Assembly: GCF_017086365.1 (NCBI RefSeq)
Contig: NZ_CP070969.1
Span: forward strand, 3,596,001 to 3,660,000
DNA length: 64,000 bases
Direction of reading: 5' to 3'
Source of the DNA: Paenibacillus tianjinensis
GTDB taxonomy: Bacteria; Bacillota; Bacilli; Paenibacillales; Paenibacillaceae
Position 1 is the stretch's first letter. Every line of letters begins with the position of its first letter. Shown in pieces: positions 43,935 to 48,764 of the stretch. The notes beneath the pieces are model-generated. The model saw nothing but the letters and a program-made list of their open reading frames with translations, did no database searches and was not told where the DNA came from. A program made the position numbers and the translations under genes.

Positions 43935-44810
43935 CTATTTCAGCAGGGCCTGAATAAATGCGGCCTCTGCTTCATTCGGCCCCACCAGGGGTAGCCGCAC
44001 AGAGCCTACATCAATTCCGCGCAGTCCGAGGGCGTATTTAACAGCAGCAGGGTTGGGCAGCGGCTGAGGACATTCAAAAAGCCCCTTGAACACCGGAAAC
44101 AGCTGACGGTGCTTCGCGCCTGCGCGCTGCACATCACCGGAGAGAAAAGCATTAATCATCTCAGACATTTGCGCACCGATCACATGGCTGGCCACGCTGA
44201 TAATACCATGCCCGCCGACGGCAAGTGTAGCCAGACCTGCAGAATCATCACCGGAATACACATGAAAATCATCAGGACAAGACGTTGCGATCAGTGTAAT
44301 CTGATCCACGGATACACATTCCTTCGTGGCAACGATATTCGGTATCTCTGCCAGCCGGAGCGTTGTGGCAGCGCTCATGCTAACAGTTGTACGGCTGGGA
44401 ACATTATAAAGAATACAGGGCAGCGAAGTATCCGCAGCAATTGCCGAGAAGTGCTGATACAGCCCCTCCTGATTCGGTTTGTTGTAGTAAGGAACGACAA
44501 GAAGCACCCCGTCTACGCCGAGTTTCTCTGCTTCCTTCGTAAGATGTATGGAATGTCTGGTGCTATTGCTGCCTGTTCCGGCGATGATCTTACAGCGTCC
44601 GTCTGCTTTTTTCAGAACATAAGAGAACAACTGCAGCTTCTCCTCGTCGGTTAAGGTGGGGGATTCCCCGGTCGTTCCGCAAACCACCAGTGCTTCGGAT
44701 TTCTGCTCTTCAATCAAATAATCCACTAACCGGGAAGTTGCTTCCCAGTTGATTTCTCCATCCCCGTCAAAGGGTGTTACCATCGCAGTGATTAATCTAC
44801 CGAAATCCAC
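43935..44810 (-). CDS. dapA: 4-hydroxy-tetrahydrodipicolinate synthase
   Basis: A 291-residue class I aldolase condensing pyruvate with aspartate semialdehyde to give HTPA, a precursor of lysine and of dipicolinate. Active-site residues: Thr46/Thr47 (CGTTGES), Tyr109 (PYYNKP), Tyr135 and Arg140 (YNVPSRT) and Schiff-base Lys163 (ATKECVS). It starts 15 bp after dapG with AGGAGG. Being last in the dpaA-dpaB-dpaA-dapG-dapA operon, it is the copy devoted to feeding dipicolinate synthase in the mother cell as well as lysine. Confidence 0.95.
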   Translation of the reverse strand: MDFGRLITAMVTPFDGDGEINWEATSRLVDYLIEEQKSEALVVCGTTGESPTLTDEEKLQLFSYVLKKADGRCKIIAGTGSNSTRHSIHLTKEAEKLGVDGVLLVVPYYNKPNQEGLYQHFSAIAADTSLPCILYNVPSRTTVSMSAATTLRLAEIPNIVATKECVSVDQITLIATSCPDDFHVYSGDDSAGLATLAVGGHGIISVASHVIGAQMSEMINAFLSGDVQRAGAKHRQLFPVFKGLFECPQPLPNPAAVKYALGLRGIDVGSVRLPLVGPNEAEAAFIQALLK

Positions 44811-44825
44811 TTTGAATTCCTCCTG

Positions 44826-46046
44826 TCAGCGGTGCAATTCAAATTTGGCATGCAGCGCACGCAGCGACTGCACCATATCTTCTTTCTTCACAAGAACCCA
44901 AATAGTGGTATTCGAATCTGCCGACTGCAGAATCTGGATATTTTGCGAGCTCAGTGCTTCAACGATCCGGGCCATGATTCCAGGCACACCGTTAATACCG
45001 CCGCCGATGACCGATACTTTGGCGCAGCCGGACAGGCTTTTGGGCCGGAGTCCAAGCTCCTGGAGCGCAGCGATCGCCTGCTCTGATTTGTCGTCATTCA
45101 CAGTATAAAGTGCTTCCGACGGTGTTACATTGATAAAATCTACACTGATGCCGCTGTCGGCCATACTCTTGAATATCTGCAGCTGCACTCCCGTGCCGTT
45201 CCCGTCAGGACACTCCACGGATATTTGCGTAATATTGCTTACATACGCGATACCCGTCACAAAACGGTCTACAATGCCGTGGGAAACGTCACTGAACCCT
45301 TCAGGATGGGTGACCAATGTTCCTTCTGCTTCAGAGAACGTAGAACGCACACGCACCGGAATTTGGGCCTGCATAGCAATCTCCACGGCACGCGGATGAA
45401 TGACCTTAGCCCCCTGGTATGCCATATTACAGATTTCTGTATAACTAACATAGGTCAGCGGCTTCGCATCTTCCACAATCCGCGGATCAGCAGTAAGAAT
45501 TCCATCCACATCGGTATATATATCGACCATATCCGCACGAAGTGCAGCTCCCAGCGCCGTGGCTGAGGTATCGCTGCCGCCTCTTCCCAGAGTTGTGAAA
45601 TCCCCGGCTTCGGTCTGACCCTGAAACCCGGTTACTATTACTACTTTATGCTCACGCAGTTCCCGTAGAATCCGTTCTGTACGCACATCCAGAATTCTTG
45701 CATTGCCGTAGCTGCTGTCAGTCAAAAAGCCCGCCTGAGCCCCTGTCAGCACGGTGGAACGGATGCCTTCCTGCTCCAGCAATCCGCATAGCGTAGTTGC
45801 AGAGATGATCTCTCCGCAGCACATCAAAAGGTCCTTCTCGCGGTCCGGCAGCGAATTGCCGTTCTGCACGGCCCAGTCCAGCAAGGTGTCCGTAGCATAG
45901 GGCTCGCCTTTGCGCCCCATGGCTGACACTACAACAACAAGGCTGAATCCGCTGGCAAGTTCCCGTTTGACATGGCGGATAACATGCTCTCTGGCCATCG
46001 GAGTGGAAAGTGAGGTACCGCCGAATTTTTGCACTAAAATACCCAT
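44826..46046 (-). CDS. dapG: aspartokinase I (DapG)
   Basis: A 406-residue aspartate kinase, first step of the aspartate pathway. KFGGTS at residues 7-12 binds ATP. The kinase domain (to ~240; GRGGSDTSATALGAAL) is followed by two ACT domains (~265-406) expected to bind the feedback inhibitor, diaminopimelate for DapG in B. subtilis. Start ATG with GGAGGAA upstream. In B. subtilis asd lies directly before dapG; here a second dpaA occupies that place. Confidence 0.95.
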   Translation of the reverse strand: MGILVQKFGGTSLSTPMAREHVIRHVKRELASGFSLVVVVSAMGRKGEPYATDTLLDWAVQNGNSLPDREKDLLMCCGEIISATTLCGLLEQEGIRSTVLTGAQAGFLTDSSYGNARILDVRTERILRELREHKVVIVTGFQGQTEAGDFTTLGRGGSDTSATALGAALRADMVDIYTDVDGILTADPRIVEDAKPLTYVSYTEICNMAYQGAKVIHPRAVEIAMQAQIPVRVRSTFSEAEGTLVTHPEGFSDVSHGIVDRFVTGIAYVSNITQISVECPDGNGTGVQLQIFKSMADSGISVDFINVTPSEALYTVNDDKSEQAIAALQELGLRPKSLSGCAKVSVIGGGINGVPGIMARIVEALSSQNIQILQSADSNTTIWVLVKKEDMVQSLRALHAKFELHR

Positions 46047-46180
46047 TATATAATTCCTCCATTACTTCTCTAAGCAAGCACACTGATGATGCGCAGAAGA
46101 ACTGTCGAAATCCAAAGAAACGGCTCTTATTACGCCAGGTCTATACTTTGATACACAGAATAAACTGCCATCCTTACTAT

Positions 46181-47074
46181 TTACAGCCGGTTATGCAAAG
46201 CCTCGTCCGATATTGACTGTACCAGAGCACTCCCTATAATCATTCCCGCTGTTCTCGGAGCAACAATACCCGGAAGTCCCAGTGCAGGAATGGCCTTGAT
46301 CCCATGCTGCTCCGCATACCGGAAATCACATCCCCCGGGGGCAGAGGCCAAATCAATAATGACGCAATGTTTGGGGATTCTCGATAGCACCTCAGCTGTA
46401 AGGATCATGCTCGGTATGGTATTAAAGATGAGATCGGCTTCCTTCACCTGCTCCATCAGTGAATCAGTTATAAAGGGCTTCCAGCCCATCTCCTCTGCGC
46501 GCGCGTAATGCTCCAGCTTCCTGACACCCATCTTGACACGGGCACCCAGACCTTGCAGCGATCTGGCCATCGTAAACCCGATTCTGCCCATTCCAAGCAC
46601 CACCGAGCACGAACCATGAATGGTAAAATCGGTATTCTGAATGGCCACAACCAGCGCGCCTTCTGCAGTCGGAATAGAATTGTAGATAGCCACATCATCC
46701 CGGCTCATCAACTCAACCAGTCTAAGCGAATGGCTGGCGCACAGGCTTCGCAAATAGTTTTTGGCTATACCAGTATACACCGTACAGCCTGTTGGCAGCG
46801 CTGCAAAATGTTCCTCCAGCAGCCGCATGGGTCCGGAAGAATACGCCGCGGCCAGGTTTCCCTCTTCGTCACAGCCCGCCGCCGGCAGCACGAGTACATC
46901 CGCGCAGCCCAGCAGTTCCGAAGAGAGCGGCTCCAGCTTCACATCTGGAATAGGGGTTTCCCACTTTTCAAACCCGGCTGCATAGACGGTAGCATCCATT
47001 TCGACACATTTGCGGATCACTTCCAGCTGTCTTGCGTCCCCGCCCAGGAACACGGTCCTGATGCCAGTCAGCAT
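46181..47074 (-). CDS. dpaA: dipicolinate synthase subunit A, second copy
   Basis: A 297-residue Rossmann-fold oxidoreductase subunit with VVLGMGRIGFTMARSLQGLG (nucleotide site, ~150-170), IFNTIPSMIL and IIDLASAPGGCDFRYAE. It is roughly three-quarters or more identical by eye to the copy at 47798-48694, including the RBS leader GGAGCGTCATCCCT before the ATG. No frameshift or lost motif is seen, so it may be functional. It stands where B. subtilis has asd. Divergence is concentrated at residues ~40-110 and the C-terminal tail. Confidence 0.9.
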   Translation of the reverse strand: MLTGIRTVFLGGDARQLEVIRKCVEMDATVYAAGFEKWETPIPDVKLEPLSSELLGCADVLVLPAAGCDEEGNLAAAYSSGPMRLLEEHFAALPTGCTVYTGIAKNYLRSLCASHSLRLVELMSRDDVAIYNSIPTAEGALVVAIQNTDFTIHGSCSVVLGMGRIGFTMARSLQGLGARVKMGVRKLEHYARAEEMGWKPFITDSLMEQVKEADLIFNTIPSMILTAEVLSRIPKHCVIIDLASAPGGCDFRYAEQHGIKAIPALGLPGIVAPRTAGMIIGSALVQSISDEALHNRL

Positions 47075-47121
47075 AGGGATGACGCTCCTCTCAAATTACA
47101 ATTCCAATTCCGGGATTGCTG

Positions 47122-47156
47122 AAAAAAGTGTTGAACCGCCCTCAGAATGAGGACGG
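47122..47156 (-). terminator. possible attenuator between dpaB and the second dpaA
   Basis: On the minus strand CCGTCCTCA pairs with TGAGGGCGG (one G-U and one mismatch) followed after 8 bases by TTTTTT. It could reduce transcription entering the second dpaA, dapG and dapA. Confidence 0.4.
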
Positions 47157-47201
47157 CAGATTTGAAGCCTATGATCAGGTCTGCTCCGGCAGACTTTCAT
47201 G

Positions 47202-47798
47202 CTATGCTGAATGAAACCGTTCGATAATCATCGGCTGCAGCTGTTTGCCCTGCAGGGCCGCGTAGCAGGCCTCGGGAATGAGTTCCATGCGCGCTACAAG
47301 CGAATTAGGCTTGCCTTCAGGGTTATCCTGGCCGAACGGTACAAAATAAATATGTTTGGCTACCAGTAGCTTCGCAATATTCGCTGCGTTCAGGCCTAGA
47401 CCATCATTAGTGGAGATCGCCAGCACAAGCGGACGGCCATTACGCATCTGCGATTTGGCTGCCATCAGTACAGGGCTGTCAGTCATCGCGTTTGCCAGTT
47501 TGCTCGTTGTATTCCCTGTGCAAGGAGCAATGGTGAGCACATCGAGCAGCTTGGATGGTCCCAGCGGTTCCGCTTCAACAATTGTAGAAATGATATCATT
47601 CCCCGTTATATCTTTCAACTGTTTTAGCCAATTTTCCGATGTGCCGAAGCGTGTGTCCGTGTTCAGCACAGATGCCGAAACAATCGGCACCACATTGGCC
47701 CCTCCGTCCATAAACCGTTGAATCTGCGGCATCACCTCAGCAAACGTGCAATGTGAGCCAGTGATGGCATAACCTACTGTTTTTCCATGCCAATCCAT
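47202..47798 (-). CDS. dpaB: dipicolinate synthase subunit B
   Basis: A 198-residue flavoprotein-like subunit (family PF02441), starting KTVGYAITGSHCTFAEVMPQ with LTIAPCTGNTTSKLANAMTDSPVLMA. With DpaA it oxidises dihydrodipicolinate to dipicolinic acid, the major small molecule of the spore core, in the mother cell. It overlaps the first dpaA by 1 bp, so it is translationally coupled to that copy. Confidence 0.95.
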   Translation of the reverse strand: MDWHGKTVGYAITGSHCTFAEVMPQIQRFMDGGANVVPIVSASVLNTDTRFGTSENWLKQLKDITGNDIISTIVEAEPLGPSKLLDVLTIAPCTGNTTSKLANAMTDSPVLMAAKSQMRNGRPLVLAISTNDGLGLNAANIAKLLVAKHIYFVPFGQDNPEGKPNSLVARMELIPEACYAALQGKQLQPMIIERFHSA

Positions 47799-48694
47799 TA
47801 TTGGTCCCCCTTGTTTAAAGTCTCCTCCGAGATCGACTGTACCAGCGCACTTCCCATAATCATCCCGGCACTTTTCGGGGCTACAATCCCTGGCAATCCG
47901 GGTGCAAGCATAGCCTTGATTCCCCGCTTCTCCGCATAACGGAAATCACAGCCGCCCGGAGCTGAGGCCAAATCGATAATGACGCAATGCCTAGGTATTC
48001 TGGAGAGCACCTGCGCCGTGATAATCATGCTCGGTATAGTATTAAAGATCAGGTCGGTATCTGTCACCTGCTGCAGCAGCTCACCGGTCATAAAGGGCTT
48101 CCAGCCCATCTCTTCCGCACGGGCATAGTGGTCCTGCTTCCGGACACCCACTTTTACAGTAGAGCCTAATCCCTGCAATGCCCTTGCCATCGTAAAACCG
48201 GTCCGGCCCATGCCCAGCACCATCGAGACGGAACCGTGGATCGTAAAATCGGTATTCTGAATGGCCATGACAAGTGCGCCTTCCGCTGTCGGAATGGAAT
48301 TATAAATCGCTACATCATCCCTGTTCAGCAGCTCTACGAGCTTCAAGGAATACTTAGCGCACAGACTGCGCAAATAACTTTTGGCCATACCGGTATATAC
48401 GGTTGCGCCTTGCGGGAGTGCTGCAGCATGCTCATCCAGCAGCTGCAGGCGTCCGGTGGAGAACAACGCGTTGATATTCCCTTCCTCGTCACATCCTACC
48501 GTAGGCAGCACCAGTACATCCGCACTGCCGAGCAGCTCCGGCGACAGTTGTGCCAGGTTCACCCCCGGGCTAGGGGCTTCCCATTTTTCGAACCCGGCGG
48601 CGCTTACCGTCGCATCCATTTCCACGCATTTTCGAATCACTTCAAGCTGTCTCGCGTCCCCGCCCAGGAACACGATCCTGATGCCAGTAAGCAT
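47798..48694 (-). CDS. dpaA: dipicolinate synthase subunit A, first copy
   Basis: A 298-residue NAD(P)-type dehydrogenase subunit with VLGMGRTGFTMARALQGLG, NTIPSMIITAQVLSRIP and LASAPGGCDFRYAE. The ATG at 48694 (MLTGIRIVFLGGDARQ) follows the same GGAGCG leader as copy 2; an in-frame GTG nine codons earlier is unlikely. It is first in the operon and coupled to dpaB, so it is the canonical subunit. A candidate sigma-K promoter lies 40-70 bp upstream. Confidence 0.94.
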   Translation of the reverse strand: MLTGIRIVFLGGDARQLEVIRKCVEMDATVSAAGFEKWEAPSPGVNLAQLSPELLGSADVLVLPTVGCDEEGNINALFSTGRLQLLDEHAAALPQGATVYTGMAKSYLRSLCAKYSLKLVELLNRDDVAIYNSIPTAEGALVMAIQNTDFTIHGSVSMVLGMGRTGFTMARALQGLGSTVKVGVRKQDHYARAEEMGWKPFMTGELLQQVTDTDLIFNTIPSMIITAQVLSRIPRHCVIIDLASAPGGCDFRYAEKRGIKAMLAPGLPGIVAPKSAGMIMGSALVQSISEETLNKGDQ

Positions 48695-48735: not shown

Positions 48736-48764
48736 CATCTTATGCCGGGGCCGCCGGATGGGTG
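48736..48764 (-). promoter_or_regulatory. candidate sigma-K promoter of the dipicolinate operon
   Basis: CACC (48761-48764), 16 bases, then GCATAAGATG (CATA at 48741-48744) on the minus strand resembles sigma-K (mACm-N16-gCATAnnnTA) with one -10 mismatch. In B. subtilis dpaAB is transcribed by sigma-K. The predicted leader is about 35 nt. Confidence 0.55.

Follow-up and report, generated by a model that had tools for sequence, protein, structure and literature searches.

A second, diverged dpaA gene in the dipicolinate synthase operon of Paenibacillus tianjinensis and some of its relatives

Introduction

The wet-heat resistance of spores is set in large part by dipicolinic acid, whose synthase has, to our knowledge, so far been treated as consisting of a single A and a single B subunit. 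Why does the dipicolinate operon of Paenibacillus tianjinensis carry two dpaA genes on either side of a single dpaB, and what might a second A subunit contribute? We examined this in a 64,000-nt stretch of the genome (the window; contig NZ_CP070969.1, positions 3,596,001 to 3,660,000) and across related genomes. Both dpaA and dpaB are named among sporulation genes (PMC3533761), and dpaAB of P. sonchi is described as functioning as a dipicolinate synthase in C. glutamicum (PMC9024752, PMC10789242), the former report characterizing paenibacillar dipicolinate synthases as little known. The P. sonchi DpaA was recovered in our homologue search (P0028), in which the best 120 of 4718 homologues were compared. 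Searches of open-licence PMC papers returned no title or abstract opening on a duplicated dpaA.

Results and Discussion

Operon structure and comparison of the two DpaA proteins

On the minus strand of the window, the genes were ordered dut, dpaA1, dpaB, dpaA2, dapG and dapA, with a gene that we take to be of RNase J type further on. The first operon copy, dpaA1 (spoVFA; 47798..48694, minus strand; 298 aa), scored 360.2 bits against TIGR02853 (cut-off 319.65) and 385 against NF006162 (cut-off 261). Its stop codon overlapped the start of dpaB (spoVFB; 47202..47798, minus strand; 198 aa; TIGR02852, 295.6 bits, cut-off 229) by one base (TAATG), in line with the coupling noted in the initial annotation. 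The second DpaA gene, dpaA2 (46181..47074, minus strand; 297 aa), started 127 nt downstream of dpaB, and so lay beside it as a DpaA gene should, and scored 343.6 and 371.6 bits against the same two curated models, over both cut-offs. Downstream were dapG, encoding an aspartate kinase (44826..46046, minus strand; NF006068, 592.6 bits, cut-off 474), and dapA, encoding 4-hydroxy-tetrahydrodipicolinate synthase (43935..44810, minus strand; TIGR00674, 324.7 bits, cut-off 206.15). Coordinates and open frames thus bore out the initial reading of two intact dpaA genes flanking dpaB in the order dpaA-dpaB-dpaA-dapG-dapA, with no asd between dpaB and dapG.

Four further elements, all on the minus strand, framed these genes. 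A putative sigma-K-type promoter of the operon, AC-N17-CATAAGAT (48737..48763), lay upstream of dpaA1 only. Between dpaB and dpaA2 was a conserved hairpin identified by pattern match (47135..47157), with a GC-rich stem, GCCGTCCTC-loop-GAGGGCGGT, and a late T run. The ribosome-binding leader of dpaA2, GAGAGGAGCGTCATCCCT (47075..47092), was the same as that of dpaA1, and the conserved dapG leader (46047..46078), near-identical in most of the single-copy relatives aligned, formed the downstream boundary of the dpaA2 insertion.

The copies had been judged roughly three-quarters or more identical; alignment gave 231 identical residues of 297 (78%) and 76% nucleotide identity over aligned codons, with dN of 0.136 and dS of 1.21 (NG86). 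GGDARQLE and GGCDFRYAE were kept in both proteins, and the GxGxxG nucleotide-binding loop read GMGRTG in DpaA1 and GMGRIG in DpaA2, so both motifs of the second copy were intact as first described. DpaA2 matched the DpaA/SpoVFA families over their full length and aligned along nearly the whole length of both solved DpaA chains (2rir_A, 3d4o_A). As in known DpaA systems, it neighboured dpaB, dapG and dapA; unlike them, the window adds a copy diverged by 22% on the far side of dpaB, with residues replaced at some otherwise constant positions.

Expression signals

Upstream of dpaA, we searched 100 nt for a pattern based on the sigma-K consensus (AC-N15..18-CATAnnnT) and used 5000 shuffled leaders as a control. 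The pattern occurred in 99 of 100 dpaA1 leaders of the genus and in 70 of the 5000 shuffled leaders, and directly upstream of dpaA2 in none of nine. Neither was a sigma-A-type promoter found before dpaA2 at 47075-47201 on the minus strand, in a scanned region that gave seven sites where 4.5 were expected. A scan of the coding strand returned no canonical terminator before dpaA2, and the T run of the hairpin began only after 8 nt. Expression of dpaA2 is most likely, and most simply, by read-through from the predicted dpaA1 promoter past the hairpin.

The conserved hairpin and the loss of asd

In B. subtilis, the operon is ordered dpaA-dpaB-asd-dapG-dapA. The window shared with it the order dpaA-dpaB-dapG-dapA and the type of promoter upstream of dpaA, and differed in having no asd and in carrying another dpaA after the hairpin and before dapG. 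The initial annotation had accordingly placed the second DpaA in the position of asd, and we compared the operon across Paenibacillus by taking it from all 100 genomes of a genus survey and reading gene order by tblastn. An intact operon asd (TIGR01296, over cut-off) was present in 17 of 100 genomes, and fragments persisted in the dpaB-dapG interval of nine (G003, G011, G012, G024, G033, G036, G062, G070, G071). The remaining 74, all nine genomes with an intact dpaA2 among them, had no detectable operon asd. Among the 91 genomes without intact dpaA2, operon asd was intact in 17, a broken remnant in nine and undetectable in 65, so its loss is wider than the presence of dpaA2.

Position relative to the hairpin pointed the same way. 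In near outgroups the hairpin lay between asd and dapG (G097 and G076, both matched by the pattern, and G098, recognized by eye because its loop exceeds the length that the pattern allows), and in all nine dpaA2 genomes it lay upstream of dpaA2. Asd thus preceded the hairpin and dpaA2 followed it, so dpaA2 does not occupy exactly the asd slot and the positional claim did not hold. Replacement of asd by dpaA2 was ruled out by the survey together with the gene order in the outgroups, and the operon's loss of asd was an event distinct from the gain of a second dpaA.

The window's genome had no TIGR01296 match over cut-off, and a search for asd elsewhere, as the initial annotation had suggested, located an EA-type asd (TIGR00978) at 351.3 bits (cut-off 301.2; G000:C1:2605241-2606287). 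The nine genomes with asd remnants, which showed several stages of decay and had an Asd-like match outside this operon, are a case of gene displacement by EA-type Asd.

By pattern, 61 of 100 genus genomes, including all nine with dpaA2, had a matching hairpin between dpaB and dapG, and the sequence of the window's hairpin had a single site in the window's genome at up to three mismatches. Pairing was kept in 96.9% of cells over 25 typed variants, as against 37.8-57.8% in slid controls, which makes pairing plausible; covariation was modest, a single pair having both its sides changed. No Rfam family matched the hairpin above its gathering threshold; the only match, below threshold, lay elsewhere on the other strand.

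Distribution of dpaA2

All 100 genus genomes had dpaA, and nine (G000, the window's genome, with G006, G008, G029, G040, G041, G056, G059 and G090) had an intact dpaA1-dpaB-dpaA2-dapG arrangement, with dpaA2 open over its full length in each. In a tenth (G081), a decayed dpaA2 stood at the same place, residues 54-84 being encoded in one frame and 85-154 in another. P. pedocola and P. auburnensis both appear to carry dpaA2. The operons of near relatives with a single dpaA, such as P. typhae, P. camerounensis, P. jilunlii and P. sonchi, shared with the window the leader, the hairpin, the leader of dapG and the order of the genes, and differed in having no dpaA2. In six genomes of the nearest sister group (G009, G060, G064, G078, G088, G095), the hairpin tail was joined directly to the leader of dapG, with gaps of 114-121 nt, a joint such as a deletion of dpaA2 would leave, which is suggestive only.

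A survey of 394 genomes of the family, 294 of them outside the genus and with up to six candidates scored per genome, returned a dpaA match in at least 377. Outside the genus, among the matches listed, more than one dpaA match occurred only in G151, G249 and G291, and the extra genes were solo copies away from the operon. G151 was considered as a second case of the dpaA-dpaB-dpaA arrangement and rejected, since its two dpaA pieces are solo, follow a repeated DUF1805 gene and have no dpaB with them.

Solo paralogues of dpaA, with about 46-55% identity to those of the window and no dpaB or dapA match nearby, occurred in 10 of 100 genus genomes as well as in these three (loci L135 in G029 and L228 in G151, and also L136-L145). 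At L135 and L228 the solo gene was near genes for SpoVAE, SpoVAC and SpoVAD and DUF421-DUF1657 genes, and we take these loci to resemble a spoVA2mob-type spore heat-resistance element with its own dpaA. No paper treating such an element together with dpaA was found in the open-licence literature. All 16 genomes of one family genus (g17; G375-G390) were without dpaA over cut-off, fitting a non-sporulating genus.

Origin and age of the duplication

DNA and protein trees were built from the same 36 dpaA1 and nine dpaA2 rows. The nine dpaA2 formed one clade on the DNA tree (support 95/94); on the protein tree the clade had support of 69/93, rising to 96/97 without the G056 copy, and in a larger protein tree it had support of 88. 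This larger tree and the homologue tree were quick searches. The hosts fell in three places, both on an rpoB tree of 40 genomes (G090 had no rpoB match) and on a dpaB-dapG-dapA-rnj tree of 53 genomes, and likewise by their own dpaA1. Since the nine dpaA2 group together while their hosts fall in three lineages, we favour, without regarding it as proven, one old duplication followed by several later losses. On the host trees a single origin requires at least three losses and one decay, and the rpoB tree requires four changes if the G081 remnant is counted as presence.

The alternative, that three host lineages gained dpaA2 separately into the same gap or passed it horizontally among themselves, seems to us rather doubtful, though it is the one to be taken most seriously. 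It would account directly for the three positions of the hosts on both host trees, and a duplication confined to the window's lineage was not rejected (p-AU 0.136 on DNA, 0.16 on protein). Two DpaA2-like proteins among the best 120 of 4718 homologues (P0002, P0003), carrying part of the DpaA2 signature without L263P or P265L, also show dpaA2 in uncultured relatives. Against it stand the dpaA2 clade, the identical place of insertion and the rare residues held in common: eight residues present in at most two of 36 DpaA1 were common to the DpaA2 of the window's and the G059 lineages, whereas two control triples of DpaA1 shared 0-2 per pair. A duplication confined to the G059 lineage was rejected (p-AU 0.0025 on DNA, 0.034 on protein), and one confined to G056 was rejected on DNA (0.040) and not on protein (0.457). 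Synonymous distances between hosts were alike for the two genes (G000-G059, 1.34 for dpaA1 and 1.30 for dpaA2; G000-G056, 1.09 and 1.35), and this equal age argues against recent transfer only. Parts of dpaA2 were at least as close, and in places slightly closer, to the dpaA1 of the same genome than to any other dpaA1 compared, which may reflect a degree of gene conversion or a later origin.

Selection on dpaA2 and its possible role

A codon model run with our own script on 18 sequences and a fixed topology gave omega of 0.159 for dpaA2 and 0.069 for dpaA1. Omega of 1 for dpaA2 was rejected (2dlnL 385), as was equal omega for the two genes (p 3e-7), and pairwise omega within host groups was 0.12-0.19 for dpaA2 and 0.05-0.11 for dpaA1. 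DpaA2 is therefore under purifying selection, and this selection is looser than on DpaA1. Together with dS of about 1.2 and the same layout in 9 of 100 genus genomes, these values uphold the earlier suggestion that the duplication was old enough to diverge and that both copies were kept. This second DpaA is real, old and under selection; it belongs to a known operon and has a patchy distribution in a single genus.

DpaA2 probably represents an old paralogue that provides a second A subunit for the single DpaB and is expressed by read-through. As trees and layout show, within the limits described above, a dpaA copy with its ribosome-binding leader and without the promoter was inserted between the hairpin after dpaB and the dapG leader, probably once, in an ancestor of a sub-clade of the genus; it was afterwards lost or decayed in several branches and retained in at least three. 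Its expression would most likely fall late in sporulation, in the mother cell, with transcription reading through from the sigma-K-like dpaA1 promoter and including dapG and dapA. As a second isoform sharing one DpaB, DpaA2 would increase the amount of A relative to B or enter mixed assemblies with DpaA1. Its looser selection, and the replacement of a few conserved residues in the window's lineage, point to an isoform whose properties differ somewhat rather than to a plain dose copy, and two subunit forms might affect dipicolinate yield, timing or dosage, as the initial annotation supposed. Counting against this account are the hairpin between dpaB and dpaA2 and the looser selection itself. 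Natural paired variants (with dpaA2, without it, and one with it decayed) can be used to test what limits dipicolinate synthesis.

The residue changes raise an alternative that we regard as unlikely, namely that catalysis has been lost or altered in window-lineage DpaA2 and that this protein serves as a neofunctionalised subunit with a modulating or structural role. In 136 columns, at least 97 of the 100 DpaA1 had the same residue, and 19 of these columns were changed in at least one of the nine DpaA2; departures numbered 9-10 in DpaA2 of the window's lineage, 5 in other DpaA2 and at most 7 in any of the 100 DpaA1. In the window these included T165I, R257H, L263P (L263A in G006), P265L and K274R, most constant residues being kept. 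T165, L263 and P265 were each constant in 119 of the best 120 of 4718 homologues, the sole exception (P0001) being itself a DpaA2 of the window's lineage, and K274 was constant in 102 of these 120. Since window-lineage DpaA2 has changed residues that are constant in near relatives, an altered function is possible. The solved structures weaken this, 3d4o having V at the T165 column and 2rir Q at the R257 column; L263, P265 and K274 agree in both, so that only L263 and P265 were constant beyond the genus in the sequences compared. The glycines of the NADP loop and GGCDFRYAE were also intact, and omega was not raised on window-lineage DpaA2 branches relative to other DpaA2 branches (p 0.22 and 0.53), giving no support for a separate episode of positive selection there. 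Judged from the alignments, catalysis of DpaA2 in the window's lineage may be kept or altered. A three-component synthase, in which one DpaB would work with two specialised A subunits and a changed substrate- or cofactor-side loop (L263P, P265L, T165I) would let window-lineage DpaA2 modulate DpaA1, is a speculative extension to which we give little credence.

More improbable still is that dpaA2 is a redundant copy in slow decay with no function of its own. Its decay in G081, its absence from 90 of 100 genus genomes, an omega 2.3 times that of dpaA1 and the failure to find a promoter of its own would fit such a copy, but the rejection of neutrality for dpaA2, the nine open frames of nine and retention through dS above 1 between lineages argue against this. 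That the arrangement is an assembly artefact, for which no evidence was found, can practically be dismissed, given dS of about 1.2 between the copies, exactly two dpaA matches in a single-contig genome of 6.27 Mb and the same layout in eight other assemblies.

The shared leader and the conserved start of dpaA

The second subunit gene carried the GGAGCG-containing leader of dpaA1, as had been pointed out. This sharing was real; as a mark of recent copying it failed, since near relatives show almost no variation in the leader and the first 45 nt of dpaA. The first 45 nt of dpaA2 were equally near to dpaA1 of other species, and with dpaA1 sites frozen there, gene conversion is not needed to explain the near-identical 5' end; small gene conversion elsewhere in dpaA2 is possible. 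In the first 15 codons of dpaA1 (48650-48694, with the leader extending to 48713), conservation of synonymous (fourfold) sites was 0.97, against 0.55-0.66 in codons 31-297, across 36 dpaA1 genes. The start of dpaA1 is nearly frozen, as might be expected if it overlapped a signal in the RNA or DNA.
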